Shown here piece after piece: positions 9,192 to 37,327 of a stretch of 64,000 nucleotides of DNA. Below the pieces are notes generated by a model, which was not told the DNA's origin, did no database searches, and saw only the letters and a program-made list of their open reading frames with translations. This stretch comes from Liolophura sinensis (taxonomy: Eukaryota; Mollusca; Polyplacophora; Chitonida; Chitonidae), in assembly GCF_032854445.1 (NCBI RefSeq), contig NC_088302.1, positions 13,635,338 through 13,699,337 on the forward strand, written 5' to 3'. The translations under genes were made by a program, and so were the position numbers. How positions within the stretch are numbered: position 1 is the first letter of the stretch; each line of letters begins with the position of its first letter.

Positions 9192-10799
9192 ATGCAGCAT
9201 CTGTTTTATCACAACTACCGTGAAGAGAAGGGCAGCTTCACCCACACTTTGGGACTGAAGGAGGTCAACCGTGCCATCACACTGCACCCGGTGAAGGAGC
9301 CTAGGTATCTGTTCAGGATGGACAAGTACTTCAAGTCGCGGAAGATCATGGAGCTGTTCCAACGGGAGCTGACACTTCATAGGGAAATGGCAAGCCTGAG
9401 CGCTCTGATTGATGCCAGGGGAGACGAGGATAACATGCCTGACCGGACTACACCTAAACAAGGTCTGCAGCCATCCCTGAATAAGTATGTCCCACAGCGT
9501 CCAGAAGACGTACTGCCCTGGGAGTTCATGGCAAAATCAGTATTTTCTCATTCCAGTGCCAATCCATCGCGTGGCATTGAACTCGCTTTACGACAGTCTC
9601 TAGATGACATTGTTATGCAAATTATGACAATGGTCAATAAAAACGCCAGACAGAGAGGCAGAACAATAGACTTTAAAGAAATTCTGTATGGTTATCGTAG
9701 GACTAACCCATTATATGGGGCAGACTATGTGCTTGATTTGCTTTTGATATATCGGAAGCACAAAGGGCGTAAAATGACGGTCCCTGTCCGTCGTCACGCC
9801 TACCTTCACCAAACATTTTTGGAAATGCAGTTTGCTGAAGAAGACCTGTCAGGGGAGACTACCCTTACAAAGATAACAGAACCACCGAGTTTCTTTGATA
9901 CTGTGCGGAGCAAACTGGGCTTTAGGTCTAGCGCAAGTTCACTGTTAAATAAAGCGCCCAAGGAAACGATACATTTCATTCTCCCATTGTCAGGGCGCTA
10001 CGACATATTCAAACGTTTCATGGCTAACTTTGAGAAACAATGCCTGAAGCTTGGGGAGCCTGTATTTCTTCATGTCATACTGTACAAGTCGAGTAACACT
10101 GCAGAATCGGACAAAACTATCGCCTTAGTCCACAAATACCAGCGACTTTACCCTGCAGGCAAAATGGAAGTTGTTCTCGCTTCCGGCACTTTTTCCAGAG
10201 GGGCAGGGCTAGATCTCGGTGTTCAGCTCTGTGCAAACAACTCACTGCTCTTCTTTGTTGATGTTGATATATATTTCACCGCTGAATCTGTGCACAGGAT
10301 ACGTGTCAACACAAAGCGCGGTAAACTGGCATATTTTCCCATCGTCTTCAGCCAGTATGACTTTGAGACTGTGCCAGGCTGTTCAAACTCATCTGGGACA
10401 ATCCCACTTTGTGGGTGGAGCAACCTTGACAAAATAACAAGCGATTACGGCTACTGGCGTCTCTTTGGTTATGGGATAGCCAGTGTGTACAAATCTGATT
10501 ACATGGCTGTCGGTGGCTTCGACAAAAACATCCACGGCTGGGGAAAGGAAGACGTTGATTTGTTCCAAAAATTTCTTACCAGTAATATGACAGTGTTTCG
10601 TTCGATAGATCCAGGACTGATTCACATATTTCATCCAATCAGGTGCGACCCGGACCTGGAACCATCACAATACCGGATGTGCACCGGGTCAAAAGCATCG
10701 AGCTACGGATCTGTAGCCCGCCTGTCCCAAATTATTCGCGACACTCCAAACTTGATTGACACTGCTGGTAACTTGTCTGAAGGGAAAGAGGCTTCTTGA
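9192..10799 (+). CDS. CHSY1: Chondroitin sulfate synthase (CHSY1/3 type), last exon
   Basis: This exon encodes 535 residues of a Golgi type II membrane glycosyltransferase that extends chondroitin by alternately adding GlcA and GalNAc. It covers the end of the N-terminal GT31 (GlcA transferase) part and the whole C-terminal GT7 (GalNAc transferase) part. Recognisable segments include MQHLFYHNY at residue 1, REALDDI-like LRQSLDDIVMQIM, LYGADYVLDLLLIY, KMTVPVRRHAYL, LPLSGRYDIF from residue 264, the DVD metal-binding motif at 357-359 in LLFFVDVDIYF, GWGKEDVDLF from 449, and a C-terminal MCTGSKASSYGS. The first Met is not a translation start: it follows an intron acceptor (TTGTAG) in phase 0, and in human CHSY1 the same Met is internal. 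The protein ends at TGA 10797-10799. The N-terminal transmembrane segment and the GT31 catalytic motif are encoded left of the window. CHSY1 and CHSY3 cannot be told apart from this part alone. Confidence 0.96.
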   Translation: MQHLFYHNYREEKGSFTHTLGLKEVNRAITLHPVKEPRYLFRMDKYFKSRKIMELFQRELTLHREMASLSALIDARGDEDNMPDRTTPKQGLQPSLNKYVPQRPEDVLPWEFMAKSVFSHSSANPSRGIELALRQSLDDIVMQIMTMVNKNARQRGRTIDFKEILYGYRRTNPLYGADYVLDLLLIYRKHKGRKMTVPVRRHAYLHQTFLEMQFAEEDLSGETTLTKITEPPSFFDTVRSKLGFRSSASSLLNKAPKETIHFILPLSGRYDIFKRFMANFEKQCLKLGEPVFLHVILYKSSNTAESDKTIALVHKYQRLYPAGKMEVVLASGTFSRGAGLDLGVQLCANNSLLFFVDVDIYFTAESVHRIRVNTKRGKLAYFPIVFSQYDFETVPGCSNSSGTIPLCGWSNLDKITSDYGYWRLFGYGIASVYKSDYMAVGGFDKNIHGWGKEDVDLFQKFLTSNMTVFRSIDPGLIHIFHPIRCDPDLEPSQYRMCTGSKASSYGSVARLSQIIRDTPNLIDTAGNLSEGKEAS

Positions 10800-16245: not shown

Positions 16246-16921
16246 GAATACAGTCAACATGGCCTGGCAACAGAAACCCCCAGTGTAGGCAGTATTGACT
16301 GAGTTCAAAGTAGCCTTGACAGAATACAGTCAACATGGCCTGGCAATGGAAACCCCCAGTGTAGGCAGTATTGACTGAGTTCAAAGTAGCATTGGCAGAA
16401 TACAGTCAATGTGACCTGGCAACAAACACCCCCAGTGTAGGCAGTATTGACTGAGTTCAAAGTAGCCTTGGCAGAGTACAGTCAATGTGACCTGGCAACA
16501 AACACCCCCAGTGTAGGCAGTATTGACTGAGTTCAAAGTAGCATTGGCAGAATACAGTCAATGTGACCTGGCAACAAAAACCCCCAGTGTAGGCAGTATT
16601 GACTGAGTTCAAAGTAACCTTGGCAGAATACAGTCAACGTGAGCTGGCAATGGAAAACCCCAGTGTAGGCAGTATTGACCGAGTTCAAAGTAGCCTTAAT
16701 AGAATACAGTCAACATGGCCTGGCAACAGAAACCCCCAGTGTAGGCAGTATTGACTGAGTTCAAAGTAGCGTTGATAGAGTACAGTCAATGTGGCCTGGC
16801 AACAGAAACCCTAAGTGTAGGCAGTATTGACCGAGTTCAAAGTAGCCTTGATAGAATACAGTCAACGTGACCTGGCAACAGAAACCCCCAGTGTAGGCAG
16901 TATTGACTGAGTTCAAAGTAC
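16246..16921. repeat. 76-bp minisatellite, nine copies
   Basis: The motif CAGTCAAC/T starts at 16251, 16327, 16403, 16479, 16555, 16631, 16707, 16783 and 16859, an exact 76-bp spacing. Units carry CCCCCAGTGTAGGCAGTATT, GACTGAGTTCAAAGTAGC and a variable joint (CTTGG, ATTGG, GTTGA). Copies differ at only a few positions. Short minus-strand open frames across it are a by-product of the repeat. Confidence 0.97.
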
Positions 16922-18243: not shown

Positions 18244-21200
18244 CTACTTATTTTTTGAAAGTGTCCTCTGTTTTTCTGCGTGCTCAACAAGTTTCTCTTC
18301 CACATGCAGTCCCTTCCTTCTGCGTACAGCGTTCATGTAAGCACGTGCTCTGTTCTCGTTGTCAGCTTTCTCCCCATAATGAAGGTATTCCTCCTCTGTT
18401 GTGGGCACCCAATACGGGTCCACGTCTAGGAGCTGAAACAGAAAATACAGAACACAGGGTAATGTAACACCGAGAACATTCGGGTAAATGTACATGTACT
18501 CGCACAATAGCTGACAGACAATAAGAGTAAATAGATTAACTAATGACAATATACATGTACCTGAACAAAAAAATTCAAGGGATTTTAAAGATATTAACAC
18601 GGAGGGAAATTACAAGAAATTCCACCAAAAGTCAAAAAAAACCATTTTTGAAATGCTGGTTGAGTTACCCATAACAAGCATACTTTCAATGCTAACACTA
18701 GTAGATGGAGAGACAAATAAGCTGAGTGTCTGGAATCTGTATTTCACAGACATAACTCACCTCCCAGTGACTGAAAGTTAGCTGAGGCCTAGCTAAGCCA
18801 CTCGTTTTCTTCCTGAAGTCATCCGCAAAGCCAAAACTTTCGACTACAGGGAGATGAGCTTCAATGTTAAAGATCTGTGAGCCTTCTCGCATATCTCCTG
18901 CGACCACACAGCCAAATCTCTTCCCCAACACCGCATACAATTTGCCTGAAAATGAAAAAAGGAAGACTTTGTTGCAGACTTTCACATGTTAAAAATTATG
19001 GTTTTAAGTGATCATCTTGATCAGAGCTAGGCAATTTCTGTACTACTTTTGGCATGCCTGAACTACACTAGAACAAAATTGCCAAAATAATGGACATTTC
19101 TAAAAAATTGTTTAACTTATCCTGTGAATAAGAATACGATTGGGAAATGATATGATTATCAAAGTTAAATGTCCCGTGGCGCATACTTCCATTTTGTTCT
19201 TAGCTCATTAAAAATGACACCACAAAATGGTCCATACAGCCGTGTACCATGGATGTTAAATTATTACCTTCTATCAGACAGGTAATATCATCACACAGGT
19301 GTTTGACCCAGATGCCTCAAATCTGAGGTGAGCGCTACATGTAAGAATGAAGTTAGGCAATGTCTGGATTACGAGATACCAATATCTAGGTCGACACTAT
19401 GTGGTCTGCGAGGTAATCCTTGCCACACATTATTTAATGTACATGCAACACAAAGCTACTAAAAGATTTGAATGACCTGACCTACAGGGGTTTACCCACC
19501 TAAAACCTCAGAGGTAGCCTGAATCTCACACTTGTACATAGCCACGTACAGCCTCTGGGGCTGCGTCTGAAAGGCTTTCCTACAGCCGTCCTTCACACAT
19601 GACATCAACTGCCCAGAAAACGGGCCATACGTCTCCTGTTTTCGTTTCAACCTGGAGACATCTTCATCTGTTTGAATGTTATCACTGGAGTTATTTCCCT
19701 TTGTCTCCATACTTGACTTGGGATAAGCAGGTTGCTGAGAATCTGAGGGCTGCTCTGACTTGGGAATTCTTTCTAAATGTGAAGAGAGCCAATTTGATGA
19801 CTCTGTTACATTTTCTTTTGCACTATCAACAACATTTTCTTCATTTTCACCCCAACGGGAGTTATTCCCTTTTGTTGTAGTCCTGTCACAGGATTGGTCT
19901 GTATTTCTTGCACCACTATTTTCCCACTGTTCTATAACAAAACAGACCCCTAGCATGGGTTCTTCGCACATTGGTCCTGCTAGTGTCGCCATCTGGAATC
20001 CACTGACAATGCTGCTTTCAAAGGGGCGTAATTCTGATTTCTGCTGCTGCTGCTGTTGTTGTTCTTCTGTCTCCAAACAGTCCCAGACAGAAGGGCGTTG
20101 ATAATCTGGTACTCTGTTTAGAAGGATGTTCGGTCCGGTTCTCCGTGGGCCAAACGACCAAATCTGATACTCAGCTCCTCTCCATTCTTTACCAGATGAC
20201 TGAAATGCTGAGCTCAGATTTGCTCGGAACTCTGCTAAAGATTTCCTCACTTCTGCACTCAGCTTCATACTTTTTGAGCTTTCCTGAATTTTCCCGGAGA
20301 ATTTCTGTTTGTGATACTCATCAAGTGTTTTAATTAAGAACGCATTTGGTTCCAACAGTTTGATTACGTCCTCTGGCAAAGGCAATGCCCGGATGCGAAT
20401 GGTGCACTTCCTGTCTGCCGTCATGGTAACCACAACACCAGGAGAAATCACTTCCGAGTCATCCTCAAATTCCAAGTAACGAGCCAGTTTCACCGGCTGA
20501 TTTGTGTCCTGGATTGATTCGTTCACCATGTCCACTTTAGGTGGTTTGATGATGGTTTCTCGAAAAGGCACAATTGGCTTTGAGGCATTGATTTCAATTT
20601 TTGCAAACCTAAACAAAAGACAAGACATTTAGTAACAATCTTGGAACCTGTAAAAATTATAAATTTATGTGTCTGCAACCAACATAATATTGTATGTCAT
20701 AAAATAAGTGTGCACTTATAGACAATGCATGTGATGGGAAACCTGCAGATGGTCATGGGTTTCCCCAGGGCTCTGCTGGTTTTCTCCCAACATAATGCTG
20801 GCCGACGTTGCATGAGTGAAATATTCTTGGGTTCTTGGGAGCTAAAAACCAATCCAACAAATAATGAAAACTCTGATTAGAACGGATTGAATTTTTCATC
20901 TGATATGTAACAGCAGTCATTTTTGTGGGTGTAAAAAACTGGAGTGGCTGGAACAAACAATCACCCTTCGTCAGGTACCAGACAAAACCTCGTGAAAGCT
21001 GCGGCTGAAACATTAAAATTTGTTTGAACAGCTTGTAGAGCCTGACAGTCACAGCAAGCAAGTGCACGGCTGTAGGTGTACCTCACCTGTCGCTACAATC
21101 ACATGATGCACCTGATAACTCACCGGTCGGTGAGGTAGTCTATACACCTCTGCAGGTGTACCTCACCTGTTGCTATGATCACATGATTAACTCACCTGTC

Positions 21201-24200
21201 AGTAAGGTCATCTATGCACCTCTGTAGGTGTACCTCACTTGCCGGTATGATCGCATGATGCACCTGATTAACTCACCTGTCAGTAAGGTCATCTATACAC
21301 CTTTGTAGGAGTACCTCCCCTGCTGCTATGATCACATGTTCTCCTGTCTCCTGTACCAGTATCTCCAAACAAGGGTCAGCCTGATTTAACAGCGTCAAGC
21401 CCTGTACCAGTTTTGTCATCTCACCTGTCAGTAAAGTGGGCTATACACCTCTGCAGGTGTACTTCCCCTGCTGCTATAATCACATGTTCCCCTGTCTCCT
21501 GTACCAGTAACTCCACACAAGGGTCAGCCTGATTTAACAGCGTCAAGCCCTGTACCAGTTTTGTCATCTCACCTGTCAGTAAGGTCGTCTATACACCTCT
21601 GCAGGTGTAATTCCCCTGCTGCTATGATCACATGTTCTCCTGTCTCCTGTACCAGTACCTCCACACAAGGGTCAGCCTGATTTAACAGCTTCAAGCCCTG
21701 TACCAGTTTTGTCATCTCACCTGTCAGTAAAGTGGGCTATACACCTCTGCAGGTGTACTTCCCCTGCTGCTATAATCACGTGTTCTCCTGTCCCCTGTAC
21801 CAGTAACTCCACACAAGCGTCAGCCTGACTTAACAGCATCAAGCCCTGTACCAGTTTTGTCAACTCGCCTGTCAGTAAGGTCGGCTATACACCTCTGCAG
21901 GTGTACTTCCCCTGCTGCTATGATCACATGTTTTCCTGTCTCCTGTACCAGTACCTCCACACAAGGGTCAGCCTGATTTAACAGCGTCAAGCCCTGTACC
22001 GGTTTTGTCATCTCACCTGTCAGTAAGATCGTCTATACACCTCTGCAGGTGTACTTCCCCTGCTGCTATGATCACATGTTCTCCTGTCTCCTGTACCAGT
22101 ACCTCCACACAAGGGTCAGCCTGATTTAACAGGGTCAAGCCCTGTACCAGTTTTGTCATCTCACCTGTCAGTAAAGTGGGCTATACACCTCTGCAGGTGT
22201 ACATGTACTTCCCCTGCTGCTATGATCACATGTTCTCCTGTCTCCTATACCAATATCTCCGAACAAGGGTCAGCCTGATTTAACAGGGTCAAGCCCTGTA
22301 CCAGTTTTGTCATCTCACCTGTCAGTAAAGAGGGCTATACACCTCTGCAGGTGTACTTCCCCTGCTGCTATGATCACATGTTCTCCTGTCTCCTGTACCA
22401 GTATCTCCACACAAGGGTCAGCCTGATTTAACAGCGTCAAGCCCTGTACCAGTTTTGTCATCTCACCTGTCAGTAAGGTCGTCTATACACCTCTGCAGGT
22501 GTACTTCCCCTGCTGCTATGATCACATGTTCTCCTGTCTCCTGTACCAGTACCTCCACACAAGGGTCAGCCTGATTTAACAGCTTCAAGCCCTGTACCAG
22601 TTTTGTCATCTCACCTGTCAGTAAGGTCGTCTATACACCTCTGCAGGTGTACTTCCCCTGCTGCTATGATCACATGTTCTCCTGTCTCCTGTACCAGTAC
22701 CTCCACACAAGGGTCAGCCTGATTTAACAGCTTCAAGCCCCGTACCAGTTTTGTCATCTCACCTGTCAAATATGCGAAAAGTTTTGGACCAGAAATGCAT
22801 TTTCAAAGCATACTCTCAAACAAATACCAAAAAATGCCAGCACAGATGTCACAAGTGACAACAAAATTAAAGGGAGGAAAAGACTACACTGTAATTCTTC
22901 AACTTTTTCGGATGTTTACGTGATGTTTATTCAAGCCTATTCTGAGGGTACTTCATGTACCACTGTGTGTAGATTGACAAAATTACACCTTTTGTGAGGC
23001 CCTGAAATTGTCCAACCACACCAATGTAGTTTAATCGCCAAAATGAATTGCAAAAAGTAAATAAATCACCCTGAAAGTTGCTCTTTGATATGTGAAAAGG
23101 TTGAGAAATTGGAGTAGGTTGAATCTATTCATGATTTTTTAATTTAATTACTGTTCAATACCATGCTCAATAATTTTTCTCTTTTACAAGTGTTATGTTT
23201 GTAGGAAACTGAAGTACCTGGTCCTAAATCACCAACCAGCTAAGCGATCGGCACCAAATGTTTATTGTTACCAAGGCCCCAAAAACAGAGAGAGTGCAGG
23301 AATCTACAATTTCCCTGTCTAAGGTTGGGTTTGAACCCACACCTAGTGTGTCATACAAACTGAAAGACTGTAAAGCCATAGATTACCTGCTTGCTTTGGT
23401 TCTATTGCTACCCTGACGATAGGAGCAGCTTCAAAGTAAAGGTCTGTGAAGGGTGGGCAGGCTACAGTGCTGGAGATGGTGGCAGACTTCAGTATGTGTT
23501 CCTCCAAACCACCTATACCTGCCAATGGATTTGTCTTACATACATATAGAATGTCCAACAGAATTTGGCGAACATGTTTATTTTGTGTTTACCAACCAGA
23601 AATACTCATTAAACAAAAAAGATGATGAGGAATTAACAGTCAAAAGCAGGCTTTTTTGTATTATGGGGATTTTCAGGCAGCTATGCATTCTCCTCACAGC
23701 ATTCTCTTTACATCACTTGTACCACCAGCAGATTTTCAGGAAAATGGTATAAATAATACCAAAATATTGAATGATGTATAGCCTTGTGTCAATCGTGGGA
23801 GTTGCCATAATACTCGGTTACTTTTACATAATCAGATTTGACGGAGAGAGGACAGAAAAGGTTGATTATGTGAGGAACAGTGTTGTTTGTTCATGGCCCC
23901 ACGCAAATAAATGTAACAAATCAGCATACAAATGTACATCAGCAATAAAGACATGAGGGATAAATATTTATCTTTAATCTCCCAGTAAAATGCCATCAGA
24001 GTTTGCAATTTGCCACACATGCATTGTTTCGTAAAACTTGAACTGTCCTCTCATTGCAGAAGCGTCATATTTTCCCGCCATATCAATTTGAGAACCTTCA
24101 ATTAACAAAGACAACCTGGACTTCAGGCACGGTTTCCGAAACTAAGGCATGTTCAAACCTTGTGTTCGCATTATTGTGACAGCAGTGACCTACGACAATC

Positions 24201-27200
24201 AGATGAGAGGATTCATGGCATACACTTGGGAAATCTCAGGGCGAATCTATGGGGTATTTACCTTAGATCTGGCATATGAATGATAAATGTCAGTAATTTT
24301 CTTATATTCAATGCAAATGGCATGGCAAACAAAAAATACAAAAAAAAAAAAAAAGAACAGAAAAAAAGGGGGAAAAACTAGAAGGCACCTATAATGTTTC
24401 CAGCTGGTACTTCAGTGAGAGACTCCAGTTCTCTGCCCATACATAGGTACAGCTCCTCCACAGTGAATGAGGTGATGTGTCTGGTACTTGTCAGGTCAGA
24501 TAAACAGTCACTGGTCTCTACTTCACCCTTCTCTTTCAGCTGAAATAACAGTAAATCATCACTAAAAAAACTGTCAATAAGTAAGTCTACAGTACGTTTC
24601 TTTAATTAAGTAAATGATGGCAATGATGTCACAGCCCACAATGTCACAGGCCATGATATCACAGGCCACAATGTCACAGGCCAAGACATCACAGGCATGA
24701 TATCACAGGCCATGTTGTCACAGGCCATGATGTCACAGGCAATGATGTCACAGGCAATGATGTCACAGGCTATGATGTCACAGGCCATAAATTGCCAGCT
24801 ATTTATTTACTTATTTCATTGTAATGTAGGGCTATACTCAAGAAGTTTTCATTTGAAGGCTGTTAATTTTACAGATGGGGGAAACCATTTTGCCCTGTAT
24901 AAATCACCGACCATTGGCAAGTTTCTAATGAACTTTCCCACATGTGACATACAGATATGCAAACAATATTAATGGAAGACTTGTGGTTTTCAATGGATGT
25001 TAGATGCACATATGGCCGCACAAGTGACAATGACCCTTTACCCTAATTCTTCTAAAATTTGGGACAGATATTAGTAGTGTTAACAGTAAAATATTACATT
25101 TCTTTACCAGCCTTTTGGAAAAGTAAAGATATGAGTATGTTGTTCATTAAATGATCTAACCATGTGAGTAAAAAGAAATTCAATGTTCCTGCCAGAATTA
25201 CATATATACTGGCTAAAATGAGTAGATCAGGTGTCCCAAATTTTAGAAGAAATAGGGTACTGTCAGCTATGACTGTTCATTCACAGATTTGCCAACTATA
25301 ACGTAGGCTATAACCAATACTGTAAGACACATATATATTTAAACAAAGATTGTACATTTTCACTTTTACTTTGAACAATGACAATTTATTAGCCTATTTT
25401 ACCAATCCTTATTCTATCTTCATCTTAAAGGCGAAGACAGCACCTGGCTAAAACATGTTTCAATCTACAATCCGCAAGCTACTTAAATGGTAAATGATAA
25501 AGCACGCTTACTGTATCAACAGTTCAAGCAGTGAATGAAATATCTTTCTAGTATGCCAATTTCTCAAGAAAGCTATTTATCACTTGGACCTTTATTGCCA
25601 AAGTCCACAAATTTTATCTACCATAGGCTACTGCTTTGATTATAATATGTAAAATAACTTCAACGCTAGAGAGCCACAGTAAACGCGACGTCCTCTTGCC
25701 GTCGATTATGTAGAAGCACTGGAACTGTATCTAGAGGAAGTTTCACTAAACTTTTACTGGGTTGAAAAAAATCTAAAAAAATATTTAATGCTGGTTAAAC
25801 ATAACATGTCTTTCAGTTCACATAAACATTAGTCAGGTGCTGTCTTTCACTTTAAAAAGGGCTTATCCGAGCAGCTAATGCCACTTTTGAACAACAAGGA
25901 AAATGACCAGATTGCTACCGTATTAACTTTGATCAAAACTCCCATTTTACATGACTTAATTCTCTGTCAGGTAATGTAGTTGGCAACATTTCGAAAGTGG
26001 CATTCAACCCCAGAAGAAACTGAAACCCATGTCTAAAGAATGTTTCAAGTTTAAATATCCTTACCTCTTCCAGTGCCTTGGTTGGGTCATGTTTTGGCCC
26101 CAGGACGTACAACTGCTGTCCCTTTCTGACAGTCCCACTGAAAACCCTCGCAAAGGCCAGAAACACCTGGTCTCCCTTCAATGGACCCTCTTGCTCCCCT
26201 GGTTTCTGCTGTAAGTTGTCAGGATGAATGGCAATACAATTTTCTGAAAAAAAAAAAAAAACATTAGGTGAATACTGCAACTGTCCACAGTGTACACAAT
26301 TACAGCTGCGTTAGGATATTTTGCTGACAGAACTCTTGGATCAGAATTGTATCTTTAAAATACTGACACTAGCCCTCTGAGTTTGGTATGACAGACATAA
26401 CAAACAGGTAAACAATTACTAACTACCGGTAACTGGAGCAAAATAAACTCATCATCATTCTTTTCCACACATCCTCAAAACTGCTATGCTCATGGGGTGG
26501 TTAGCGAAAAAGACATTAACCCAACTAGAAAACTTTGGTTTACTTTGGTTACTTTGGTTTCATTTATTTGGTTGATGTTTCACTTGTGCATCAGTAGTTA
26601 GGTTAATGGGTGGAGTGCCCAGAGTAAAGCCCACAGCTACATGTACATGACAACCCTCCTGATCAGAAGCTACAGCTGAAGATATTCAAATATGGTACCT
26701 GGATTTTGAATGGATGCACTTTCTTCATTTCGGACCAATGCCTCTTCCCGTCTCACAGCAATACGTTGTCTGGCCTGCAGTCTTCTTTCTTCAATCTCGG
26801 CATTGGTTAATGGCCTAAAACATATGCACAACTGGAGATACACAGAACTGGCGAGTTTCTCTGTTATTGGTGGGACGTACATTGTATATGTAAGAGCAAT
26901 AAAATTAAAGCAGTAAGAGAAGGGCTGTAGGCAAGAGCAGCAAAGAACAAACAATAAACCAAAAGGAGAAAGAAAACAGGCAATAAGATTTACTCATTTT
27001 TTTAATTTGATTGGTGCTTTACTCTGTACTCAAGAATATTTCACTTATAGAAGGGCAGCCAGCATTAACCGCACAGAGCCTGGGGAAAAACACGGCCCTC
27101 TGCAGGTTCCTGGCAGAACTTCCCCACCTACGTCCAGAGAGGATGCAAGCATGAGCTGGACTTGAACTCACAACAACCGCATTGGAAGGAGGCTCCTGGG

Positions 27201-30200
27201 TCACTGCAGCCACAGAGGAATCCCGGTGATAAGATAAAAGCAGGAACACAAGAACACCAAGATAAAAGTGGCAAGACTAAAACACTTAACACGAAGCAAT
27301 GAACTTTACCTCTGCCTGTTCTGGGGAAGGGATTTCCTCTCCACAGCGAACATTTTGGACACATACACTATGACCGGTGAGTCTTCTGAAGCATCACAAG
27401 CTATAAAATCTGTAAAATAACACATTTTACCACTTTAGATCATCACAAGCTATAAAATCTGTAAAATAACACATTTTACCACTTTAGATCATCACAAGCT
27501 ATAAAATCTGTAAAATAACACATTTTACCACTATAGATCATGAACCAAATGCAGACATTAATACTGATTAATGTATTTCACCTAAAGTCTGACCTGTAAA
27601 AATACACTTTCACATGTACAGAAAGGCCTTAAAATAATGCCTTTGATACCAACACTTAAGTATTTCTGGTAAGAAATTAAACAAACTTCGCAAACAATCA
27701 AAATGTGTCACTTGAAAAATGCTTAACGTTAGGTGAAGCACACTAATTCTCAGCTCACATTTCATCACAAAATACCAGAAAATCTTGTCTACTGCTTGAA
27801 AAAACAGACTAAGCCTGCACACACTACCAGATATTGAAATCACCTGAAAGACTGCAATAAGGTACTGCATTTGATTATTCTGTCAAACTTTAGAGAACCT
27901 ATGAAAAGCACTCAAAACACAGGACGACCGCTAGGCTCCCAGAATAAGTGGGTGCCAGTTAGATTTTAACTGTGACTCGCCTATTTAAACCAGCAATCTA
28001 TGTGTTTTGAGTCCTCACTTCTCCCACAGGACTAAAGGGAAATTCCATCCCCTCCAGAAGTACAGTCGACAGTGCTTTAATACATTCCACCCTGTCACAT
28101 AGCCACTATAAACACGTTAACGCAGTAAGGATTAAAGAAAACGGTTAAGCAGAACGTATCCACGTCACTCATGTACAACATTATTTCAACTCCTTATCTT
28201 AACGACTTAAGTGCCTCAATGAACCTGTACCCAAAAATATTTAATGTGTAATTACTTGCTTATTTTACTTGTGTTCGAAGCTCTTAAAACAAGCCGATGA
28301 GAACAAGCTGACTGCTGATCCAGTGATGGCCATTTTACCCATCACATCTGCCCATCACCAGTTACAGTCGAGAATTGTTTGATGTTACTACAGAATTGTG
28401 ACTTTGAAAACCTGACAGAAGATTCAACGTCTTCCCAGCCCGGTATATTCAAAGAGAGATAACAGACTGGATTGCACAGATGCTGAAGACAAAAACTAAA
28501 GCTCTTACTATTCTTTAACTGCTGGGTTTGGACTGGTAGCGAATCAAACTGTCGTGCTCGACTGCACATTAACTTTTCAATTCTTTCCTCTGATAGGCTC
28601 AGTGGGGACAGCAGCTTCTCTGTTACCATACCTAAAACAAGAACAAAGTTCAGACATAAAAATCTAATTTATTTGATTGGAGTTTTACCCCTTTTAACAA
28701 GAATATTTCACCTATACGATAACAGCCAGCGTTACGGTGGGAGGAAATTGGGCAAAACTGGCAGACCTTCCCACACATTGACCGAAGAGACTGCCAGCAT
28801 GAAATGGACACATAAATAAGGCAAAAAAACACACAACACATATCTATGCATCTACACATCTTGGTAAGTATGATATATCACACACATGTTCATCATCAGG
28901 CAAATGTATGTGCATGGGCGGCTGATCTTCCAAATTATTCACAAACGCAATGATTATTTATTTGATTTGCATTTGAGTCCATACTGGGAATTTTTGGCAA
29001 AAAATTCCTAATCCTATCAAAATTTTCAGTATTTACCAAGAATGGCTCAAATTATTGCCTTTCAATAAATTTCAAACTCGTACCCTTTCTATTAACACAA
29101 TGCGACTTGCTATATAAATTTTACAAACTTTATTACCGATAGCAACAAGTGCACAGGCGAGGCCGATATTTTCTGAAAGGTAATTACTTGAGCTATTCTG
29201 TTAATATAACACCAAAAATTCAAGTTGATTCACTCTAATCAATACTTTGCCAAGAATCTCTTGGTAAAGCCTCTTTAATGCGGACCACAAACAATACTCA
29301 TCTTACATGAAGGACAGGTATTAATTAATTACACAATTACTCTGTGATAGAATACACAAATATATGGTGTCAATAATCCTCATACTGGGTTTTATACTGT
29401 AAAGACCCATCAATTTACTCCAGAAAACCGATAAATAGGTGAATCACGTCAGAGATATGACCTCTGCTGGATCCCAATGAAGGGAGATAACCTACTGAGA
29501 AGGCACATTTGACATTGTCTGCAGGAATCGAAAATATATATGTAGCCCATGTGGCCGTTGTTGTCCAATGAAAAGCGGAGTATTTTGTCTAATGCGGGAT
29601 GAATCGGTTTATCAGGACATCAGACAGAATTTTTCATGACAAGGATGCCCACTAAGCCACTACTCTCCCACAGGTACATGTACTTGACAAACCTATCTTA
29701 AAGCCGCAGCTGAACTAGCAAGAATTAGCAGAATTAACAAGAGAGTTTAAATGCAGGTACATGAATATCTAAAACTGTCTCCAAAGCGTAGTGATAACCG
29801 AATTGTCAGTTGTCACTAATTTTTAAAACTCATCCTACGGGTACGACTTACCCAGAACAGCCCCCGAAAGTGGTAACCACTGGTTACAGACAGCCTGGAG
29901 ACAAACGCGGGCATCTGTATGACGGGCATCACGTGGGGCAATCTTCAAGTCAAGCGACTTCACTATCTTTGCCATTTTTTCTTTATCCCTACAGAGCAAG
30001 GTATACACAAACATATTACTTTAAGTTCATTAATACATTGACAGAAAAAAAAATACTGTTGCATGCAATCTAAAACTTAGAATATTTGTCCTACAAATTT
30101 TACATACACTATAAGATTTGAAGACAAAGTTCATATCTTACTTTCTGATAAGGACGGCCTCATAGACAGCCCATAGATTCTCCAAGACACATTGCACAAA

Positions 30201-33200
30201 CAATGGCTTCTTGGCTTTCATCTGAAAAAGAACTAGAGTTTAGAGTGTGGCCTTATACATGTGTGGTCAAATAGTACACTCTTTGGAACATAAGCAAACT
30301 GTTAAGCCATCCAACATGCTGAAAAGGCCTCTGGCAAGGGCAAAAGCAACCAACCCTCAAAGATAAAACAGCACTATTTGAGTTTCTTACGTTCCAACCA
30401 CAACACCATGAGCTTGAGCACTGAATGACGGTTAGAAGAGTAAGGGGGATACAGAATGACAATTAGTTAACTCATTTAGTCACAAGTGAAGTATTTATCA
30501 ACTTCAACAAGGACTCCTCCCCCCCCCACCCCCCACCAATGCGATCACTGTAAATTCCAGTCCTCTATGAGCGTAGGTGGGAAGGTCTGCAGTAAACCTG
30601 CAGATGGTTGTGGGTTTAGCCCCTGGTTTCCTCCCACCATAATGGGTGGGCCACTGCCCTATAAGTGAAATAAGTAAGTACAGCGTTAAACACCCATATA
30701 AATCAATAAACAAATAAACAACAAGGATTTACAGTGAAAAAAAACTTAGTGTCTTCTAAATGAATACTGGTTTTTGTTCATTAAGTATTCACCTGTGCTC
30801 CTGTCATGATCTTCTTCGTTTTACCGTTGTAATAAAAATCTCCCCACAGTGACTTCTGCAAAACAGCTGGATTTACTTCCAGTTTCTTCGAGTACATTTC
30901 AGAGAACTGAGCAATGCTGTAAAAAGGCAGATAAATCACTGAGGTAATGGTCAGGTAAAAATATGTTAATGATACTTAAAATGCCTGCAATAAAGCTGAA
31001 GTGGCTTCCAGTTTTCAGGTAATACTGTTTTTTGATCAAGACATGTCAATTTTACTGAAGTAAAAGGTAATATAACAAAGAGAATAACCAATGAAATTAA
31101 CTGCTGTAGACTCTTTAGTGCATGTAGTTTATACGTATCTCTAGAACTCTTTTTATCTACTACATTTTTTTTTTCATGTAATCCTAATTTGCATCACGTT
31201 TTCCACAGTTTTATATCAAGAAGGATAACTCACCTAAACCCCCATCCATCTAGAGCACTGGCAAAGATTACATTCCTTGGTCTGGAGAGAAGTAGATGTG
31301 GGAGTCATCAGAGTCTTCAATACTCCAGTCGTAGACCTGCATGTAACATGACATCAAACAGTGTGCAACTACAACAAAACTATTCCAAAACGTTCCCAAA
31401 AGATGTTTTTGCTTTGGGAGGATGGGCTAGGAAAAGGAAATATAATGAAGGTAGGTCTGTTGAGTAACATAGCAACTCAGGGCAATTCTGCCTCAATTCA
31501 GTATATTCAAATGTTCTTTTCCAAAATTACAGCATTCACATGTATATCAATCATGCCAATTTATTTCAATCTAGAAATGAGCGTTAATATAAAGTAGGTG
31601 CAAATGCCACATTATAACTTTTCATGGAAAATGCCTAAAATGTTTATCTATCAAACCTTTCATTTTCTTTGAAAAAAAAAAGAAGTTTAACATCTGTAGT
31701 GATGTTAGAAAATGGGTTACCTGTTCACTGTTGGAGTTTACTCTGGTTCTTCCAGTTGTGCTTTCAGACACCTGCATAATACAGAAACAAGTAAATCTAC
31801 AAATACCTTACTCTCATAGCTGTATATAACTCCAAAAATTTAATTATTTCAAATACCAGATTTCTGAAATTACAAATAAGTAAATAAACTATTATTAAAG
31901 AATACTGTAATATAAATACTGGAATGATTGAACAACTACAGTGGACTCTCTCAACACTGACACTTTAATTAACCGACATCTTGTCAAAACCAACAACATT
32001 TCGTGGTCTGTTTTCTGCTCCATTTGACAGTAATGTTAATTGCCTTCAGTAAACGGACTCTTGTCTATTCTGAACACCGAATGTGGTTTGCAGTAAAAAC
32101 ATTTCCAGAGAGTGTTAAAATGTCTTGTCTAATCTGATGCAGCTTGACGCACGACGTCCGACGGAGTCCGAGTTTGGCTTCGACGTCCCTGCTCGCCAGG
32201 TGACGGAAGATCAGTGGGAAGGGAGATCATATGCTTATGTGAACTCTTGCCTACTTCAGCAGGTGGTGGTCTCCTGTCTTGACACTGTGCCATACCTCCC
32301 GCGGAGATCAGAGTTTAGTCACTGTGTGAGTGAAAGATGAGTCTGACACTGAGTAGCTCAGTGAGTGAATACAAATGCCTTAAACAACAGCTGCCTGCAC
32401 AATTTTCCTTGCAAAGTTGTAGGCTACTTGCCCACATTTATTACAGTGACATCTTGTCTAAACTGACATTTTTGTTCGGTTCCCTGTATGGCTGGTTTAC
32501 AGAGAGTCTACTGTAGTTATTTGTTAATGTAGGTTGACTTACATTGGCCGTCTTCTCCAGATGTTCAGAGGTGAAAAGTTCACTGGTGATCACATTAATC
32601 TGGTAACATGAATCAGTATCATTGTGATGAAATAACGTAGATAATGCCATTTACAATAAGCAATATTCAGACAATTGATATCCCAAAATAAGCATGCAAA
32701 TTTATGCAGGATTCATGCTGGATTTAGATTTTGATCCAAGTGGTCACAAAATGAATCTGCACAAAAAATTTAATTAAAACTGGACTCAGACAATATTTGA
32801 AGCAGTTATAGCATGGAGATTACCCAACCTGAATGGAGGAAGTCTTACAATATGCAAAAGTTGTACACAGATCTAGCTTGTACTCGAACATGATCTATAC
32901 ATATACATACCCTACATGAGCATAAATTTTGTCCACGACTAACTTGCTCTTTTTTCCTAATCCTGAGCCGAGAGTTCTATAGATTTTAGAAAGGTGTTCT
33001 GAGGTTTGCTTGGAACGTGGGATGATATTCTACTGGAAAAGTTTCAGCACCAAAAATTATATTTTGTGACATTTATTTGCCTCTAAAAAAGCACTTCTGT
33101 GGGTGAAAGTTTAGGCCATTTAGGGTAATATGTTTTCAAAATTGGATGACATCTGAGGCAGTTATTACCCAGAAACCAACATCTATAAATGAGAATCACA

Positions 33201-36200
33201 GAATACACTAAATATACAAAACCTGCACACATCCATCTGTCCCAATGAGAATCATAGAATACACTAAATATACAAAACCTGCACACATCCATCTGTCCCA
33301 ATGAGAATCATAGAATACACTAAATATACAAAACCTGCACACATCCATCTGTCCCAATGAGAATCATAGAATACACTAAATATACAAAACCTGCACACAT
33401 CCATCTGTCCCAATGAGAATCATAGAATACACTAAATATACAAAACCTGCACACATCCATCTGTCCCAATACGGCGGGGTTTCTGCTATTGTAGGAAAGT
33501 GAGATTCTGACCATTTTCAACCATTTATAAATCTGTTTTGTGTCCTTGTTAACATCTTTTTCTCACCTGTTCTAAGATCTTCTGCAGGTGTATATAAGCC
33601 TGTAGAGGTTCCATTTTCACTTCTGTGATCAGGCGATCTATCTTGTTCAGGATTAGCACAAGTCTGATGTTCTCTAGCCAGGCTTGTCGTAACACAGCAT
33701 GTGTCTGTCAAAGACAAATTAGAACAAAATCACATGTATGTTCACAGGTGCTCCGAGTGCTTAAATATGGATAGAGCTTAAAAAGGATGTTCGTTGATTT
33801 ACTTATCTTATTTTGTTGATTTTCAGCTCTTCTACTCAAAGGGATCAACTTTATGGTTACTGAAAACCAGAAAAAACCCGTAGGACAACAACAACACGGT
33901 TGACTAACTTCTTATCTTCAACATATACTCCCAAGAATGTGATATTTGCCTTTTAGAAATCATGGTCAAAATGTCAACATGTGAAGCTGTATATAAGGGG
34001 TAAATAGATTCAGTGATAAAAACTGTTCCATATTATTCAGTAGAACCCTATGGAATGAGTATATTGCAGTTTAATGTAGGTGGTTCATGAGATGTCACGA
34101 TAACCACCATAGCCAACAAATATCCAGCAGGTGTTTTGCTCAACATATGTCTAACTCTGGTTGCGGATGCATTTTGAAATTTGCATTCAAACTTGTCGGT
34201 CAGTTTTCACACATTCAGTGATAAATTATATCATGCCTAAACATACATGCCTAAACATATCTGTATATCATGCCTAAACATATCTGCATATCATGACTAA
34301 AACGTATCTGTATATGATGCCTAAACATATCTGTATATCATGACTAAAACATATCTGTATATCATGAATGAAACATATCTGTATATCATGACTAAAACAT
34401 ATCTGTATATCATTTCCTTTGTCAATATCTCAGTGGATTTGACAAACTGTTCATCTAATTTAAAGACTTTGTATATTAACAGCTTTGTGCATTTATACAG
34501 AATATCCTCTATTTGTTTTTGATAGCATATTTATAGTGCTGCCTCAATGAAGTAGTTAGAAAAAGACACCATAGCTGACACCACACCATTCTCAACCTGC
34601 CACCCCAAATGACAGGGTTTAGTGAGAATCCCACCCCGACTCACATACCTGAGGGCTGACCCCCTCCACAACATCCACCACCATCAGGGCTCCGTCACAC
34701 AGCCGCACAGCTGTGGAAACCTCACTGGAGAAATCCACATGACCAGGAGAGTCAATCAGGTTGATGAGGAAATCTTCACTGTCTGAAGTAAGAAAAAGTT
34801 CGACGAATGTGAATATTGAGGTAATCAAATACTCTTACATACAGTCTCAGCTTCACAGCATTCTGTCAATACTGTAACATGAGATCTGGTAACTATATGA
34901 ATAGGGTAAGAAACCCCATGCTTCCTACCAAGATTTAAAACATGAATCTCTCATACACATTAAAGGGGTTCCTTTTCCTGCGTAATGGTGAATTAAGGTC
35001 TACAATGAATTGATCACTGTTCACTGGCAATACATGGGTAATACGTTACCAGTTTGCAAACAAATCATAATTGCAAAGGCAGGAATGACTGATATGCTAA
35101 TGGCACGCTTAATGGCCCCCCAACACAAATGTCTGCTTATAAAGAGTTGTGCTGTTGTGCTTGTACCTTTATGATAAAACAATGAAATTCCGCTTGACTT
35201 CATGGTGATTCCTCTAACCTGCTCATCTTCCCTGCTGTCCATATACCGCAACTGTTAACAAAACAACAGCAGATTGAAGGACTCCATATTGTATATATTT
35301 CATACATTCAATATAAATGTAAGTTTTACCCCTTTCCACCATACAAAAGTTCTTAGTTGCCAGGTTTTGGGTGAAGGAAACCCGATAGACCTTAAAAGAA
35401 ACCACTGAGGGTGTATGACAAGCTTTCAAACATTGGGCTGCCGTTGAGCCGAAGGAACAAAGATTCAAATGCCCAAACTATACCAGACGGTACAAGGGTA
35501 AAGGCTGGTTTTCTTCTCATTAGAACCCATTAGACAGCTTGAAGATTTGACAGCTAGAACCATACTATATAAGGAGTAATAAACTGTCCTTATCTAAAAC
35601 ATGAACGAACTGTTAAAAGGGCAAGAGAGAACCGTGAAACTCCAGGCATGAGAGTGCATGGGACAAGTATATACTCACATGACTCATACAAGTGAAAGTT
35701 GCCATGGAGAAAACAAGAACATTTCCAGCAACACATTGCTGGAAGACCTTCCCACTTACAGCCGGAGAGGAAGCCAGCATGGCTTGAACTCACAGCCACC
35801 ACATTGGTGAGGGGCACCTGGATCACTGTGCAGTGCTGGCATGCTACGGAGCAACATTTCCAGCATGTCAGTCCTTAGATGGAGCTCCCCTTATGAGAGT
35901 ACTCACCTTTCCAGCCATGCGAGGGGAGATAATTCCATTGCTGGCAACCAAGGCATCTGCAATAGTTGTCTTCCCTGAAATGCATTAAAGCCAAGGTGTA
36001 TGTTAGATAACAGGAGTCAAAATCAGCTGTATCAGCCAGTGGACCAATCTTGATGTGGTAAAAGACTGCTAGTGTAATTTGTGAAAACTAAATAGTAAAA
36101 GTAAAATTAAAATTCTTTCTGTCTACACCGCCTCAATAGGAGCAATCATAACCTCACAGAAACTGTATGCACAACATATATATGAAGCATCCCAATCATG

Positions 36201-37327
36201 CAAATATGTGTATGTTTGGACATTTCTCACTACTACTTGTAGGTTAATACCTAATTCAAAGGCTTCAATGCAGTACATGTGTATATCAATGCATGGCATT
36301 CCATACTACCCACAAATATATTTTTATATTGTATTATAGATTTCTTATTCAATACGTTAGATGGGAATATAAGGTTGTCTAGGTTTAGGTCTGGGTGACT
36401 CCCTCACCTACAGATATATGTACTTTGAAATCAGACAAATTCTAACCAAGATGACTATTTTAAGTTTCTGGCCCCATGGCCAGGTTGCTCAAATATGTAT
36501 TAGAAGTTACGTCCTGCTAAAATCTCAATACCGGTGTTATAATGCAAAACTACTGGAAATTTAGATTAAAGTTAATACCAGGCTTAACTACTTATACACT
36601 TTTGAACAACAGGGGCCTATTGTTCAGACGCGAATTTAGATTAGGTAGCAAGGCTACCAAAGAGTTCGCATGAATGCAAAACTTCAGCTCAATACATACA
36701 GCACTGACATTGTGAATTTAGTAATTTACCGTAATTAATATGCAGAGCATCAGTGATAGAACATCACCCTGGTATCAATGTGGTTTATGTGCATGTAAAA
36801 CTTCAGGTCAATACATGCTGTCCTTTTTAAGATACCACCCCTAACACTATGTTTAACATTGCTTGTAATTATGTACAATACACTAAGTCAAGAATTTGGT
36901 AATTTACGATGTTTAATATGCACACGTTATCAACAATGGAATATCCCCCTCGTGTTATTGTGCTCGTCATGTGTGCAATCCCTAATGTTAATAAATGCAG
37001 TACTTTTTAAGATTCCACCCTTAACATTCTGTTTAACATTGCTTTCCCTGTTATTGAAAACCGATGCTCAGAGTACAACATTTATAAGCTACAGCAGTGC
37101 TTTGTACAGGCGGGTAAAAAATACAAGGATGTTCAAGTATTGTTAAGACCTACAGCACTATTTCTCACATACACTCTATATGCATGGTAATATTCCATAT
37201 TGCGTGATGATTACACCCCATATAAAATGCTCTTACCATGATCTACATGGGCCAGGATGCAGATGTTTCTCACATTTGCTGGATTCTTCTGGAGTTGTGC
37301 AAGCTTTTCTGGAGGTGTAGTTCTCAT
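18244..37327 (-). CDS. EFL1: EFL1, EF-2-like GTPase of 60S maturation (21 coding exons)
   Basis: EFL1 is a cytoplasmic GTPase that, with SBDS, evicts eIF6 from late pre-60S subunits. Exons traced from the start codon at 37327 (GT-AG, phases consistent): 37237-37327, 35907-35974, 35167-35251, 34649-34782, 33567-33704, 32543-32599, 31721-31771, 31234-31336, 30793-30916, 30142-30221, 29852-29988, 28509-28631, 27310-27409, 26699-26814, 26065-26243, 24389-24539, 23387-23518, one unit of the exon-18 array (for example 22615-22762), 19500-20608, 18761-18945, 18244-18432. Motifs: AHVDHGKTT from residue 26 (P loop), [17 protein letters not shown] (switch I), [12 protein letters not shown] from 92, NKIDRL from 146, [28 protein letters not shown] (domain II), [11 protein letters not shown] (domain III), [16 protein letters not shown] and YGPFSGQL (domain IV), ending [12 protein letters not shown]. 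The sum is 3500 nt; one base appears missing in exon 8, which would give 3501 nt (1166 residues; human about 1120). The start has A at -3 and an upstream acceptor at 37352. Confidence 0.95.
19500..20608 (-). CDS. EFL1: EFL1 exon 19 (domain IV, with insert and polyQ)
   Basis: The largest coding exon (1109 nt, phase 2 in and phase 1 out) begins [19 protein letters not shown]. It carries the domain IV segments [17 protein letters not shown] and [17 protein letters not shown] run of seven Gln (CAG5/CAA2, 20041-20061) and a roughly 100-residue Asn/Ser/Glu-rich linker follow family positions where human EFL1 also has a poorly conserved insert. Conserved sequence resumes at [20 protein letters not shown]. 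The acceptor is TTTGTTTAG and the donor GTGGGT. Confidence 0.95.
20735..20866 (+). repeat. SINE family A copy in EFL1 intron 18
   Basis: AACCTGCAGATGGTCATGGG, TCCCAACATAATGCTGGCC and GTGAAATATTCTTGGG are followed by AACCAATCCAACAAAT. It lies between the exon-18 array and exon 19. Confidence 0.8.
21068..22762 (-). repeat. EFL1: Tandem array of EFL1 exon 18: ten full and three partial copies
   Basis: Each 148-nt unit encodes one version of the domain III segment (G)[18 protein letters not shown], then [20 protein letters not shown], then [11 protein letters not shown]. In gene order the full units are: U1 22615-22762, U2 22467-22614, U3 22319-22466, U4 22165-22318 (154 nt), U5 22017-22164, U6 21869-22016, U7 21721-21868, U8 21573-21720, U9 21425-21572, U10 21277-21424. 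Partial units are 21196-21276, 21124-21195 and about 21068-21123. No intron separates them. Boundaries read TGACAG|GTGAG on the minus strand, which fits both an acceptor and a donor. The unit has phase 1 in and phase 2 out, so one unit joins exon 17 (ending A+g) to exon 19 (starting g+TTT) in frame, whereas reading across a junction usually gives AGG TGA. All full units but U4 (an internal TAG and a 6-nt insertion) are open. U6/U7 has GCGAG in place of GTGAG. Two 3' subtypes occur: IDDLTDR (U1, U2, U5, U8, U10; U6 is IADLTDR) and IAHFTDR/IALFTDR (U3, U4, U7, U9). Confidence 0.93.
22884..23116 (-). mobile_element. MITE, family CCCTAATTC (copy 2)
   Basis: On the minus strand it matches the element at 1147 through ordered blocks: CTCAACCTTTTCACATAT, GCAACTTTCAGGGTG, TTTCAGGGCCTCACAA, TCTACACACAG. 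Imperfect inverted ends (ACTGTAATTCTTCAAC and ACTCCAATTTCTCAACC) are bordered by TA. It sits in EFL1 intron 17, about 120 bp upstream (in gene order) of the exon-18 array. Confidence 0.7.
24620..24790. repeat. 15-16 bp minisatellite (TGATGTCACAGGC)n
   Basis: About eleven copies of a unit close to AATGATGTCACAGGC in EFL1 intron 15, next to exon 16. TGATGTCA resembles a CRE-like half site, but the array looks like a simple minisatellite. Confidence 0.9.
25041..25257. mobile_element. MITE, 217 bp, TA-flanked, CCCTAATTC ends
   Basis: The left end CCCTAATTCTTCTAAAATTT and the right end, read inward, CCCTATTTCTTCTAAAATTT match at 18 or 19 of 20 bases and continue GGGACA. TA lies at both borders (25039-25040 and 25258-25259). 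The terminal CCCTAATTC links it to the MITE at 1147, but the interior is different. Confidence 0.8.
25425..25855. mobile_element. MITE, about 430 bp, TTAA-flanked
   Basis: A 27-bp terminal inverted repeat with about three mismatches: left TTAAAGGCGAAGACAGCACC, right read inward TTAAAGTGAAAGACAGCACC. Both outer ends begin with TTAA, which would fit a TTAA target duplication (piggyBac-like); the family is otherwise unidentified. No transposase frame. Lies in EFL1 intron 15. Confidence 0.75.
27003..27216 (-). repeat. SINE family A, near full length
   Basis: Reverse copy: TTTGATTGGTGCTTTACTCT, CAAGAATATTTCACTTATA, GCCAGCATTA, then GAGCTGGACTTGAACTCACA and GGCTCCTGGGTCACTGCAGC. In EFL1 intron 13. 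Confidence 0.85.
27392..27538 (-). repeat. EFL1: Three 49-bp copies of the EFL1 exon 13 acceptor
   Basis: The unit starts at 27392, 27441 and 27490. On the minus strand each copy holds AAATGTGTTATTTTACAG followed by the first coding bases of exon 13 (ATTTTATAGCTTGTGAT). Three equivalent acceptors therefore exist, at 27409, 27458 and 27507. Only the most downstream one (27409) continues into exon 13 in frame. Because 49 is not a multiple of three, use of either upstream acceptor leads to a TAA within about ten codons. The third copy differs by a single base. Confidence 0.93.
28666..28808 (-). repeat. SINE family A copy
   Basis: Reverse copy in EFL1 intron 11, close to exon 12: TTTGATTGGAGTTTTACCCC, AAGAATATTTCACCTATACG, CCAGCGTTACGGTGGGAGGA. 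Confidence 0.8.
30571..30722 (+). repeat. SINE family A copy
   Basis: CGTAGGTGGGAAGGTCTGCA, CCTGCAGATGGTTGTGGG, TTTCCTCCCACCATAATGGG and TATAAGTGAAATAAG are followed by an A-rich AATAAACAAATAAAC tail. In EFL1 intron 9, next to a poly-C run (30520-30536). Confidence 0.85.
31234..31336 (-). pseudogene. EFL1: EFL1 exon 8 with an apparent one-base deletion
   Basis: The exon encodes [20 protein letters not shown] and then, one frame over, [13 protein letters not shown], matching the human segment ending SAIDGWGF. Around 31273-31276 the minus strand reads CAAGGAATG where family comparison calls for CAAGGNAATG, so one base is missing and the literal frame hits TAA at 31268-31270. Flanking splice sites (GCAG acceptor, TTTAG|GTGAG donor) and all other exon phases are intact, and the gene's exon total is one short of a multiple of three. 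I typed this exon as pseudogene only to flag the break. An assembly or sequencing error in the A run, or a null allele, are the main readings; the gene as a whole looks functional. Confidence 0.8.
31939..32513. mobile_element. Tc1/mariner-pogo-like MITE, 575 bp
   Basis: The ends are CAGTGGACTCTCT on the left and, read inward from the right, CAGTAGACTCTCT. TA lies immediately outside both (31937-31938, 32514-32515). CAGT... ends with a TA target site fit pogo/Tigger-type elements. GACATCTTGTC occurs near both ends. The middle (about 32134-32370) is GC-richer with a 71-codon frame that I do not recognise; no transposase. Lies in EFL1 intron 6. Confidence 0.75.
32985..33085 (+). repeat. Dispersed repeat family D (copy 2)
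   Basis: Block-wise match to 5535-5640 (TTAGAAAGGTGTTCTGAGG, TTTCAGCACCAAA, ACATTTATTTGCCTCTAA). The string TATTCTACTG...TTTCAGCACCAAA also occurs inverted near 44430-44460. Confidence 0.45.
33187..33470. repeat. 56-bp minisatellite, five copies
   Basis: AATGAGAATCA starts at 33188, 33244, 33300, 33356 and 33412, an exact 56-bp spacing. Copies are nearly identical, suggesting recent expansion. It lies in EFL1 intron 5, roughly 100 bp downstream of exon 5 in gene order. Confidence 0.95.
34228..34412. repeat. 22-23 bp minisatellite
   Basis: About eight copies of ACATATCTGTATATCATGAC with CTAAA/ACTAAAA joints, in EFL1 intron 4. Confidence 0.9.
35684..35840 (-). repeat. SINE family A, head-biased copy
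   Basis: Reverse copy showing CTTCCCACTTACAGCCGGAG, GAGGAAGCCAGCATG, GCTTGAACTCACAGCCACCA and GGGGCACCTGGATCACTG, i.e. the tRNA-like head side. The 3' part is degraded. In EFL1 intron 2. Confidence 0.75.
36660..37055 (+). repeat. Degenerate tandem duplication, about 178-bp period
   Basis: GAATTTAGTAATTTAC at 36714 and GAATTTGGTAATTTAC at 36892 start two related segments, each ending TTTTTAAGATACCACCC or TTTTTAAGATTCCACCC and TGTTTAACATTGCTT. Lies in EFL1 intron 1. Confidence 0.65.

Follow-up and report, generated by a model that had tools for sequence, protein, structure and literature searches.

A coding exon of EFL1 repeated ten times head to tail in the chiton Liolophura sinensis

A stretch of 64,000 nucleotides (nt) from the chiton Liolophura sinensis (contig NC_088302.1, positions 13,635,338 to 13,699,337 of the forward strand; hereafter the window) contains the gene EFL1, one exon of which is present as ten full copies. 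EFL1 is an essential ribosome-maturation factor. The gene lies at window positions 18244–37327 on the minus strand and has 21 predicted coding exons, with a single 1-nt frame break in exon 8. The assembly, 609,464,459 bases in 632 contigs, was published as that of Liolophura japonica (GCA_032854445.1), a name since corrected to L. sinensis (PMC11068029, available in part; PMC12441733). According to the available part of the original report, hifiasm was used to assemble HiFi reads with a mean length of 8,347 bp at 14x coverage (PMC11068029).

Exon cores were recognized by eye, guided by human EFL1, and were then confirmed by homology. The joined protein matched named EFL1 proteins of Lingula and bivalves at 56–59%, most of them over the whole query (best 120 of 7863 matches). 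Predicted exon 19 (19500–20608, minus strand) carries the Pfam EFL1 domain, and its best PDB match was 5anb chain K; the chain is named "elongation factor Tu GTP-binding domain-containing protein 1", as EFL1 was formerly called. Copy 1 of exon 18, taken alone, reached 22.3 bits against EFG_III, below the cut-off of 27. Judged by full-length similarity together with its EFL1 and EF-G domains, the gene is EFL1, as had been proposed, with the identity of the repeated exon, in an earlier reading made from the DNA letters alone (the sequence-only reading). Exon 19, searched against the assembly, hit a single locus, and EFL1 is apparently single-copy in this chiton, this being the sole locus detected. 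Compared with the best 120 homologues, the whole gene model keeps 281 of 285 near-invariant columns and breaks four, and its exons other than exon 8 are read without a stop. The frame break of exon 8 falls in the G domain (31234–31336), near 31274, with SPDQG on one side and the continuation in another frame on the other. It may stem from an error in the consensus or from a null allele of one individual, either being likelier than a pseudogene. A second EFL1 gene, or an exon 18 lying elsewhere, was considered and, as far as searches with exon 19 and with array DNA go, rejected: exon 19 has its one locus, and array DNA (21068–21362, 295 bases) gave nine matches among the best candidates scored, all of them here.

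The ten full copies of exon 18 occupy 22762–21277 of the minus strand head to tail, with zero bases between them. Tandem Repeats Finder (TRF), run independently, placed the array at 21272–22768 with a period of 148 nt, 10.1 copies and 93% matches. The sequence-only reading had described ten full copies of a single 148-nt exon, with nothing between them, at 21068–22762. Copy number and juxtaposition were borne out. The length holds for nine copies but not for copy 4, which has 154 nt, including a 6-nt insertion, and an in-frame TAG; likewise the ten copies extend only to 21277, and the remainder down to 21068 is taken up by two truncated units and part of a third. All copies start with GTGAGATG, except copy 7, which starts with GCGAGTTG, and every copy ends with ACTGACAG. 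With the insertion of copy 4 excluded, pairwise differences range from 1 to 18 over the 148 aligned positions. On the 3' side of copy 10 comes the ancestral donor GTGAGTTAATC, followed by three shorter units in which the head of the intron is fused to the tail of the exon. Two of these, 81 and 72 nt long (21124–21276, minus strand), have tails identical to copy 2 at 53/62 and 54/60 positions; the third, a partial unit (21041–21123, minus strand), matches copy 2 at 29 of 36 over the matched part. The donor border has therefore been duplicated in more than one way.

The two ancestral borders of the exon are alike. At the acceptor the sequence is ATATTTGACAG/GTGAGATG and at the donor CTTACTGACAG/GTGAGTTA (the slash marks the splice junction), and 11 nt, TGACAGGTGAG, are common to both. 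These homology arms lie at 22758–22768 on the acceptor side and at 21272–21282 on the donor side, both on the minus strand. The window holds 11 occurrences of the 11-mer, ten of them at the borders of full copies and one between truncated units, where 0.01 would be expected by chance; none of 100 shuffles reached 11. CAG/GTGAG, and with it AGGT at both edges of the duplicated unit, marks both outer borders as well as eight of the nine internal joins, the remaining join being AG/GCGAG. The repeat edges, which had been said to lie exactly at the splice junctions, do fall there because both exon borders carry the 11 nt. Their placement is nevertheless free within the shared 11-mer; the edges can slide anywhere along it, and their exact coincidence with the junctions is therefore less independent than it appears.

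Homologues provide a view of the age of this border. A search with the protein of exons 16–19 returned one contig protein of an apparent close relative, 95% over 54% of the query, with ends that resemble intron sequence; it starts just upstream of exon 19 and so is uninformative on the array. Exon-18-sized reading frames were found in a search with the array frame (best 120 of 136 proteins). Among these matches 14 proteins were inspected, none of which carries the array junction. In eight of the 14, G-E-M or G-D-M follows unrelated sequence, which suggests that the border of exon 18 is old. No near-identical protein of this species appeared among the best 120 of 7863, 120 of 412 or 120 of 136 matches.

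Predicted exon 17 (23387–23518, minus strand) ends in AAGCAAGCAG/gtaatc, in phase 1. In agreement with the predicted gene model, exon 18 is entered in phase 1 and left in phase 2. The frame stays open through exons 19–21 in 9 of 55 contiguous inclusions and in 9 of the 1023 non-empty ordered subsets of copies, a count that disregards splice-site quality. All nine open sets are single copies (1–3 and 5–10), copy 4 being excluded by its TAG. Every multi-copy product is closed, skipping exon 18 breaks the frame, and only one copy can thus be included in an open messenger RNA. The sequence-only reading had anticipated these phases and the rule that exactly one copy keeps the frame, and both stood. 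Its further statement, that reading from one copy into the next usually gives AGG TGA, also stood save at the junction before copy 7, where AG/GCGAG gives AGG CGA instead.

Splice sites were scored with a rough matrix. Only copy 1 (22615–22762, minus strand) has an intronic acceptor, ATTTGACAG, with a score of 5.0; acceptor scores at the nine internal joins run from −1.1 to 3.8, and from −1.1 to 0.1 for the joins before copies 2, 3, 6, 7 and 9. As donors, eight of the nine internal joins score 6.5 and the ninth is GC, while the donors of the gene model range from −0.4 to 7.9 (n = 20, the copy 1/copy 2 junction among them). Placed after the CAG of a preceding copy, GTGAGATG is on par with most other donors of the model. 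For copy 1, the putative working exon, the predicted donor CAG/GTGAGA is made up of the first bases of copy 2.

Each copy was compared with 22 columns of exon 18 that are near-invariant in the best 120 homologues. None of these columns is broken in copies 1, 2, 5 and 8, and some are broken in copies 3, 6, 7, 9 and 10. Copy 2 (22467–22614; this and the following copies are likewise on the minus strand) is 1 nt from copy 1 and encodes the canonical protein behind a weak acceptor. Relative to copy 2, copy 3 (22319–22466) has the changes K10T, V21I, D44A, D45L and L46F and is open, as are all the others apart from copy 4 (22165–22318). Copy 5 (22017–22164) differs by K10T, a change of two bases, and by one silent change. 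Copy 6 (21869–22016), whose own donor would be GC, carries L5P, K10T, E28K and D44A. Nine residues differ in copy 7 (21721–21868): M2L, K10M, N13S, P17A, V21L, E25G, D44A, D45H and L46F. Copy 8 (21573–21720), preceded by a copy 7 tail with a strengthened pyrimidine tract, is canonical except for V37L, a residue absent from the 120 homologues. Copy 9 (21425–21572) has K10T, V21L, D44A, D45H and L46F, and copy 10 (21277–21424), which adjoins the ancestral donor GTGAGTTA, has K10T, V19L, V21I and H38L. Private bases set apart copy 1 (CGG at codon 7), copy 8 (TTA at codon 37) and copy 5 (ACC at codon 10 with GAT at codon 45).

The residue at position 10 is Lys or Arg in 120/120 homologues, Thr in copies 3, 4, 5, 6, 9 and 10, and Met in copy 7. 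Open copies 3, 5, 6, 7, 9 and 10 therefore carry a residue there that is absent from the 120 homologues, and all of them but copy 5 carry further such residues. Asp45 (120/120 homologues) is lost in copies 3, 7 and 9 and His38 (also 120/120) in copy 10. Thr3, common to all copies including copy 1, was seen in none of the 120. The 29 variable columns, 28 of which lie in full codons, are split 10:9:9 over the codon positions. Minimum events, counted column by column without column 2 and the insertion, number 20 for replacement or stop vs 10 for silent, where 26% silent would be expected without selection (p = 0.40), and one stop was seen among the 30 events, with 1.09 expected. From these counts, which come from a small sample and are not a fitted model, no coding constraint on the alternative copies was apparent. 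Nine functional protein versions were rejected as the main account on the residue losses and the missing codon-position bias, and the copy sequences lend no support to the suggestion of as many as nine exon versions, since six of the nine open copies have the foreign residue at position 10.

The copies other than 1, 2 and 8 group together in the copy tree (support 0.86), and most copies therefore seem to descend from one that already lacked a conserved residue. There is also a polarity along the array. At the end with the true acceptor, copy 1 leaves all 22 near-invariant residues intact, and at the end with the ancestral donor, copy 10 loses His38. Such polarity would be predicted were copy 1 the exon and the start of copy 2 its donor.

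The array is probably a minisatellite with a whole coding exon as its unit, in which copy 1 is the exon, the start of copy 2 its donor, and copies 2–10 lie in intron 18. Slippage or unequal exchange between the two 11-nt arms would have duplicated exactly one exon. Every duplication would have been nearly silent at birth because the exon's own donor-like first bases, after the preceding CAG, score as a donor. The spliceosome is predicted to use the true acceptor before copy 1 and the donor formed where copy 1 meets copy 2 (GTGAGA), so that copies 2–10 would be removed with intron 18; the intron would then measure 2,006 nt, of which 1,338 nt would be full copies. Surplus copies would have drifted and been re-copied among themselves. 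A transcript with more than one copy, or with none, would meet a stop or a frameshift and would be expected to undergo nonsense-mediated decay. No new intron position would arise in this way, as the surplus would lengthen the existing intron 18.

Several observations weigh against this account. The acceptors before copies 4, 5, 8 and 10, supplied by the tails of copies 3, 4, 7 and 9, score 2.0 to 3.8, inside the range of the gene-model acceptors (−2.2 to 13.0). Columns 133–138 form a run of six columns that are all variable (p = 0.004), and each of the six changes in them, whether purine to pyrimidine (three) or C to T (three), improves the score of the pyrimidine tract. The six tract-raising changes give p = 0.002 to 0.005 when taken alone, depending on the transition bias assumed, and p = 0.02 vs 11/24 elsewhere in the exon. 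They could mean selection for acceptors. The tract test was picked after the data were seen, and one shared multi-base change could account for part of the pattern. In addition, nine of the ten copies are open, so that drift fits the data and is not required by them; copy 2 is canonical and copy 8 nearly so, and neither copy 5 nor copy 8 breaks a near-invariant column. Copy 8 or copy 5 may occasionally be spliced in.

An alternative is a cluster of mutually exclusive exons with zero-length introns, in which the AG/GT joins would act as both acceptor and donor and several variants of EFL1 domain III would be made. Nine single copies that are open, with every multi-copy product tested closed, are what such a cluster would show; eight of the nine internal junctions retain an intact donor, the tracts of four acceptors are strengthened, and for human UBC the available part of that report shows AGGT junctions serving both ways within an array of coding units (PMC10809524). 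Nevertheless, five copies (3, 6, 7, 9 and 10) break near-invariant residues, seven of the ten lose the Lys/Arg of position 10, codon-position bias is absent, the acceptors before copies 2, 3, 6, 7 and 9 score at most 0.1, and copies 1, 2 and 8 would yield nearly one protein. We consider the cluster unlikely. A narrower form, in which dual-specific junctions would give more than one EFL1, with copy 1 as the main version, either copy 8 (V37L) or copy 5 (K10T) taken in its place through their strengthened acceptors, and exclusivity enforced by the frame, appears just as improbable. It is conceivable, if rather doubtful, that the copies are used stochastically and without regulation: copy 1 would dominate, copies 2, 8 and 5 would appear as low-level noise, multi-copy products would be cleared by nonsense-mediated decay, and EFL1 output would be slightly lowered or buffered. 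Eleven TGACAGGTGAG sites lie within 1.6 kilobases (kb), and the dual-specific sites of UBC splice stochastically, the available text reporting that no tissue or feedback control was found (PMC10809524); on the other side, nothing in the sequence demands stochastic use. Such use is compatible with the minisatellite explanation, and the probabilities assigned to the two overlap.

That the assembler inflated one exon to ten is very improbable. Coverage of 14x in HiFi reads is modest, the same assembly holds an apparent mitochondrial concatemer on contig C99, and exon 8 has its 1-nt frame break. Against this, the copies mutually differ at 1 to 18 of 148 positions, more diverged truncated copies adjoin the array, and the mean read of 8,347 bp is about five times the 1.7 kb of the array, so reads can span it. 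The read lengths behind the assembly weaken the worry of an artefact without removing it. The frame break within the G domain would suit a reading in which the whole EFL1 gene is a pseudogene and the array a product of its decay. However, the exon 19 search of the assembly detected no second EFL1 locus, the other model exons are stop-free, and 281 of 285 near-invariant columns are kept, all of which makes decay highly unlikely.

The minisatellite explanation has precedents in part. Human UBC consists of 228-nt ubiquitin units placed head to tail and bounded by AGGT sites that serve as donor, acceptor or neither, in the available part of the report (PMC10809524). As in EFL1, coding units follow one another with AGGT exactly at their borders; each border site of UBC can be donor or acceptor, and the number of units varies widely between species (PMC10809524, same part). 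The 228-nt unit is a multiple of three, and any number of units codes, whereas the 148-nt EFL1 unit is not (148 = 1 mod 3) and gives TGA at all joins but one, so that only one unit is readable. Moreover, UBC encodes tandem protein repeats where EFL1 needs the segment once, and in UBC the use of the sites has been shown by RNA, whereas the EFL1 array is known here from its sequence. Scored as UBC-type dual sites, the EFL1 joins are donors of 6.5 at eight of nine and weak to moderate acceptors (−1.1 to 3.8).

Intron gain by tandem duplication of an exonic AGGT segment (Rogers 1989) is represented by ATP2A1 (Hellsten 2011) and by fission-yeast introns spanning several 24-bp duplicates, all as cited in the available part of PMC4974935. 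Duplicated exon sequence there becomes intron and the protein stays unchanged, as is predicted for EFL1, and the fission-yeast intron covers several duplicates, as proposed for the EFL1 array (PMC4974935, same part). The difference is that an exonic segment gives rise to a new intron in those cases, whereas in EFL1 a whole exon would be duplicated and the surplus fused to the existing downstream intron. For Drosophila, the text examined of PMC2891723 describes five probable cases of introns from tandem duplication with a proto-splice site, at intron positions 10 to 31 nt apart. The likeness lies in an acceptor-then-donor proto-splice site that was duplicated with one copy intronised. Those introns are perhaps old enough for the footprint of duplication to have been lost, and that text holds no surviving array (PMC2891723).

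Mutually exclusive exons resemble the EFL1 array in having homologous copies of which one and only one is usable. Copies of the Dscam type are separated by introns, and exclusivity in the known systems comes from competing RNA structures or from spacing. The EFL1 array is without introns, and exclusivity would come from the reading frame; the tandem duplicated exons compared are those of Dscam, myosin heavy chain and U2AF1, and those in the available part of PMC9013439. In the literature searched, mostly without subscription papers, no gene for a non-repeat protein was found in which the unit length is indivisible by three and almost every join creates a stop, nor was EFL1 found together with exon duplication. 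The view that no gene built this way had been described must be qualified: an exact match did not appear in these searches, but UBC (PMC10809524) and introns from duplicated exon segments (PMC4974935, PMC2891723) come close, as far as the available parts of these sources go. The EFL1 array differs from the known cases in that a complete exon is the unit, its length is not a multiple of three, a stop stands at all joins but one, and the surplus feeds an existing intron, by a mechanism that we infer.

A base rate for tandem arrays was obtained from 20 stretches of 10 kb (200 kb) at preset places on contigs C1–C7. They contained 39 merged loci with a period of 20 or more and at least three copies. 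Five rows, in four of the 20 stretches, had three or more copies with a period of 100 or above, including one of 144 nt x 18.2. Arrays of such size are not rare in this genome; the exon as unit stands out.

Other repeats were seen in and around the gene. At the predicted acceptor of EFL1 exon 13 (27392–27541) a 49-nt unit is repeated 3.1 times, with the acceptor and the first nine exon bases triplicated, a second exon-border duplication within EFL1. Intron minisatellites lie at 33188–33470 (56 nt x 5.1) and 34242–34413 (47 nt x 3.7), and a 76-nt unit is repeated 8.9 times with 91% matches at 16246–16920, past the 3' end of the coding region. Neighbouring genes on the plus strand include a chondroitin N-acetylgalactosaminyltransferase-like frame (9195–10796) and a SAXO1/2-like frame (52343–53449). 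No known RNA family reached gathering scores in the window, and zero-length introns would leave the array no space for selector sequences between its copies. Elsewhere in the assembly, seven COX1 matches are spaced about 15.5 kb apart on contig C99, with one more on C632, resembling a head-to-tail mitochondrial concatemer left in the assembly.

An exon that begins with donor-like GTGAG would bring its own splice donor with each exact duplication. This suggests a route by which an exon in a conserved, apparently single-copy gene could be multiplied tenfold without obvious harm, and it offers a testable rule for which exons can turn into minisatellites or feed introns. The locus may be a conversion of exon to intron caught in progress, with many comparable copies. 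With eleven near-identical donor/acceptor sites and only one choice that gives protein, it would also put splice-site selection by the spliceosome to a natural test.

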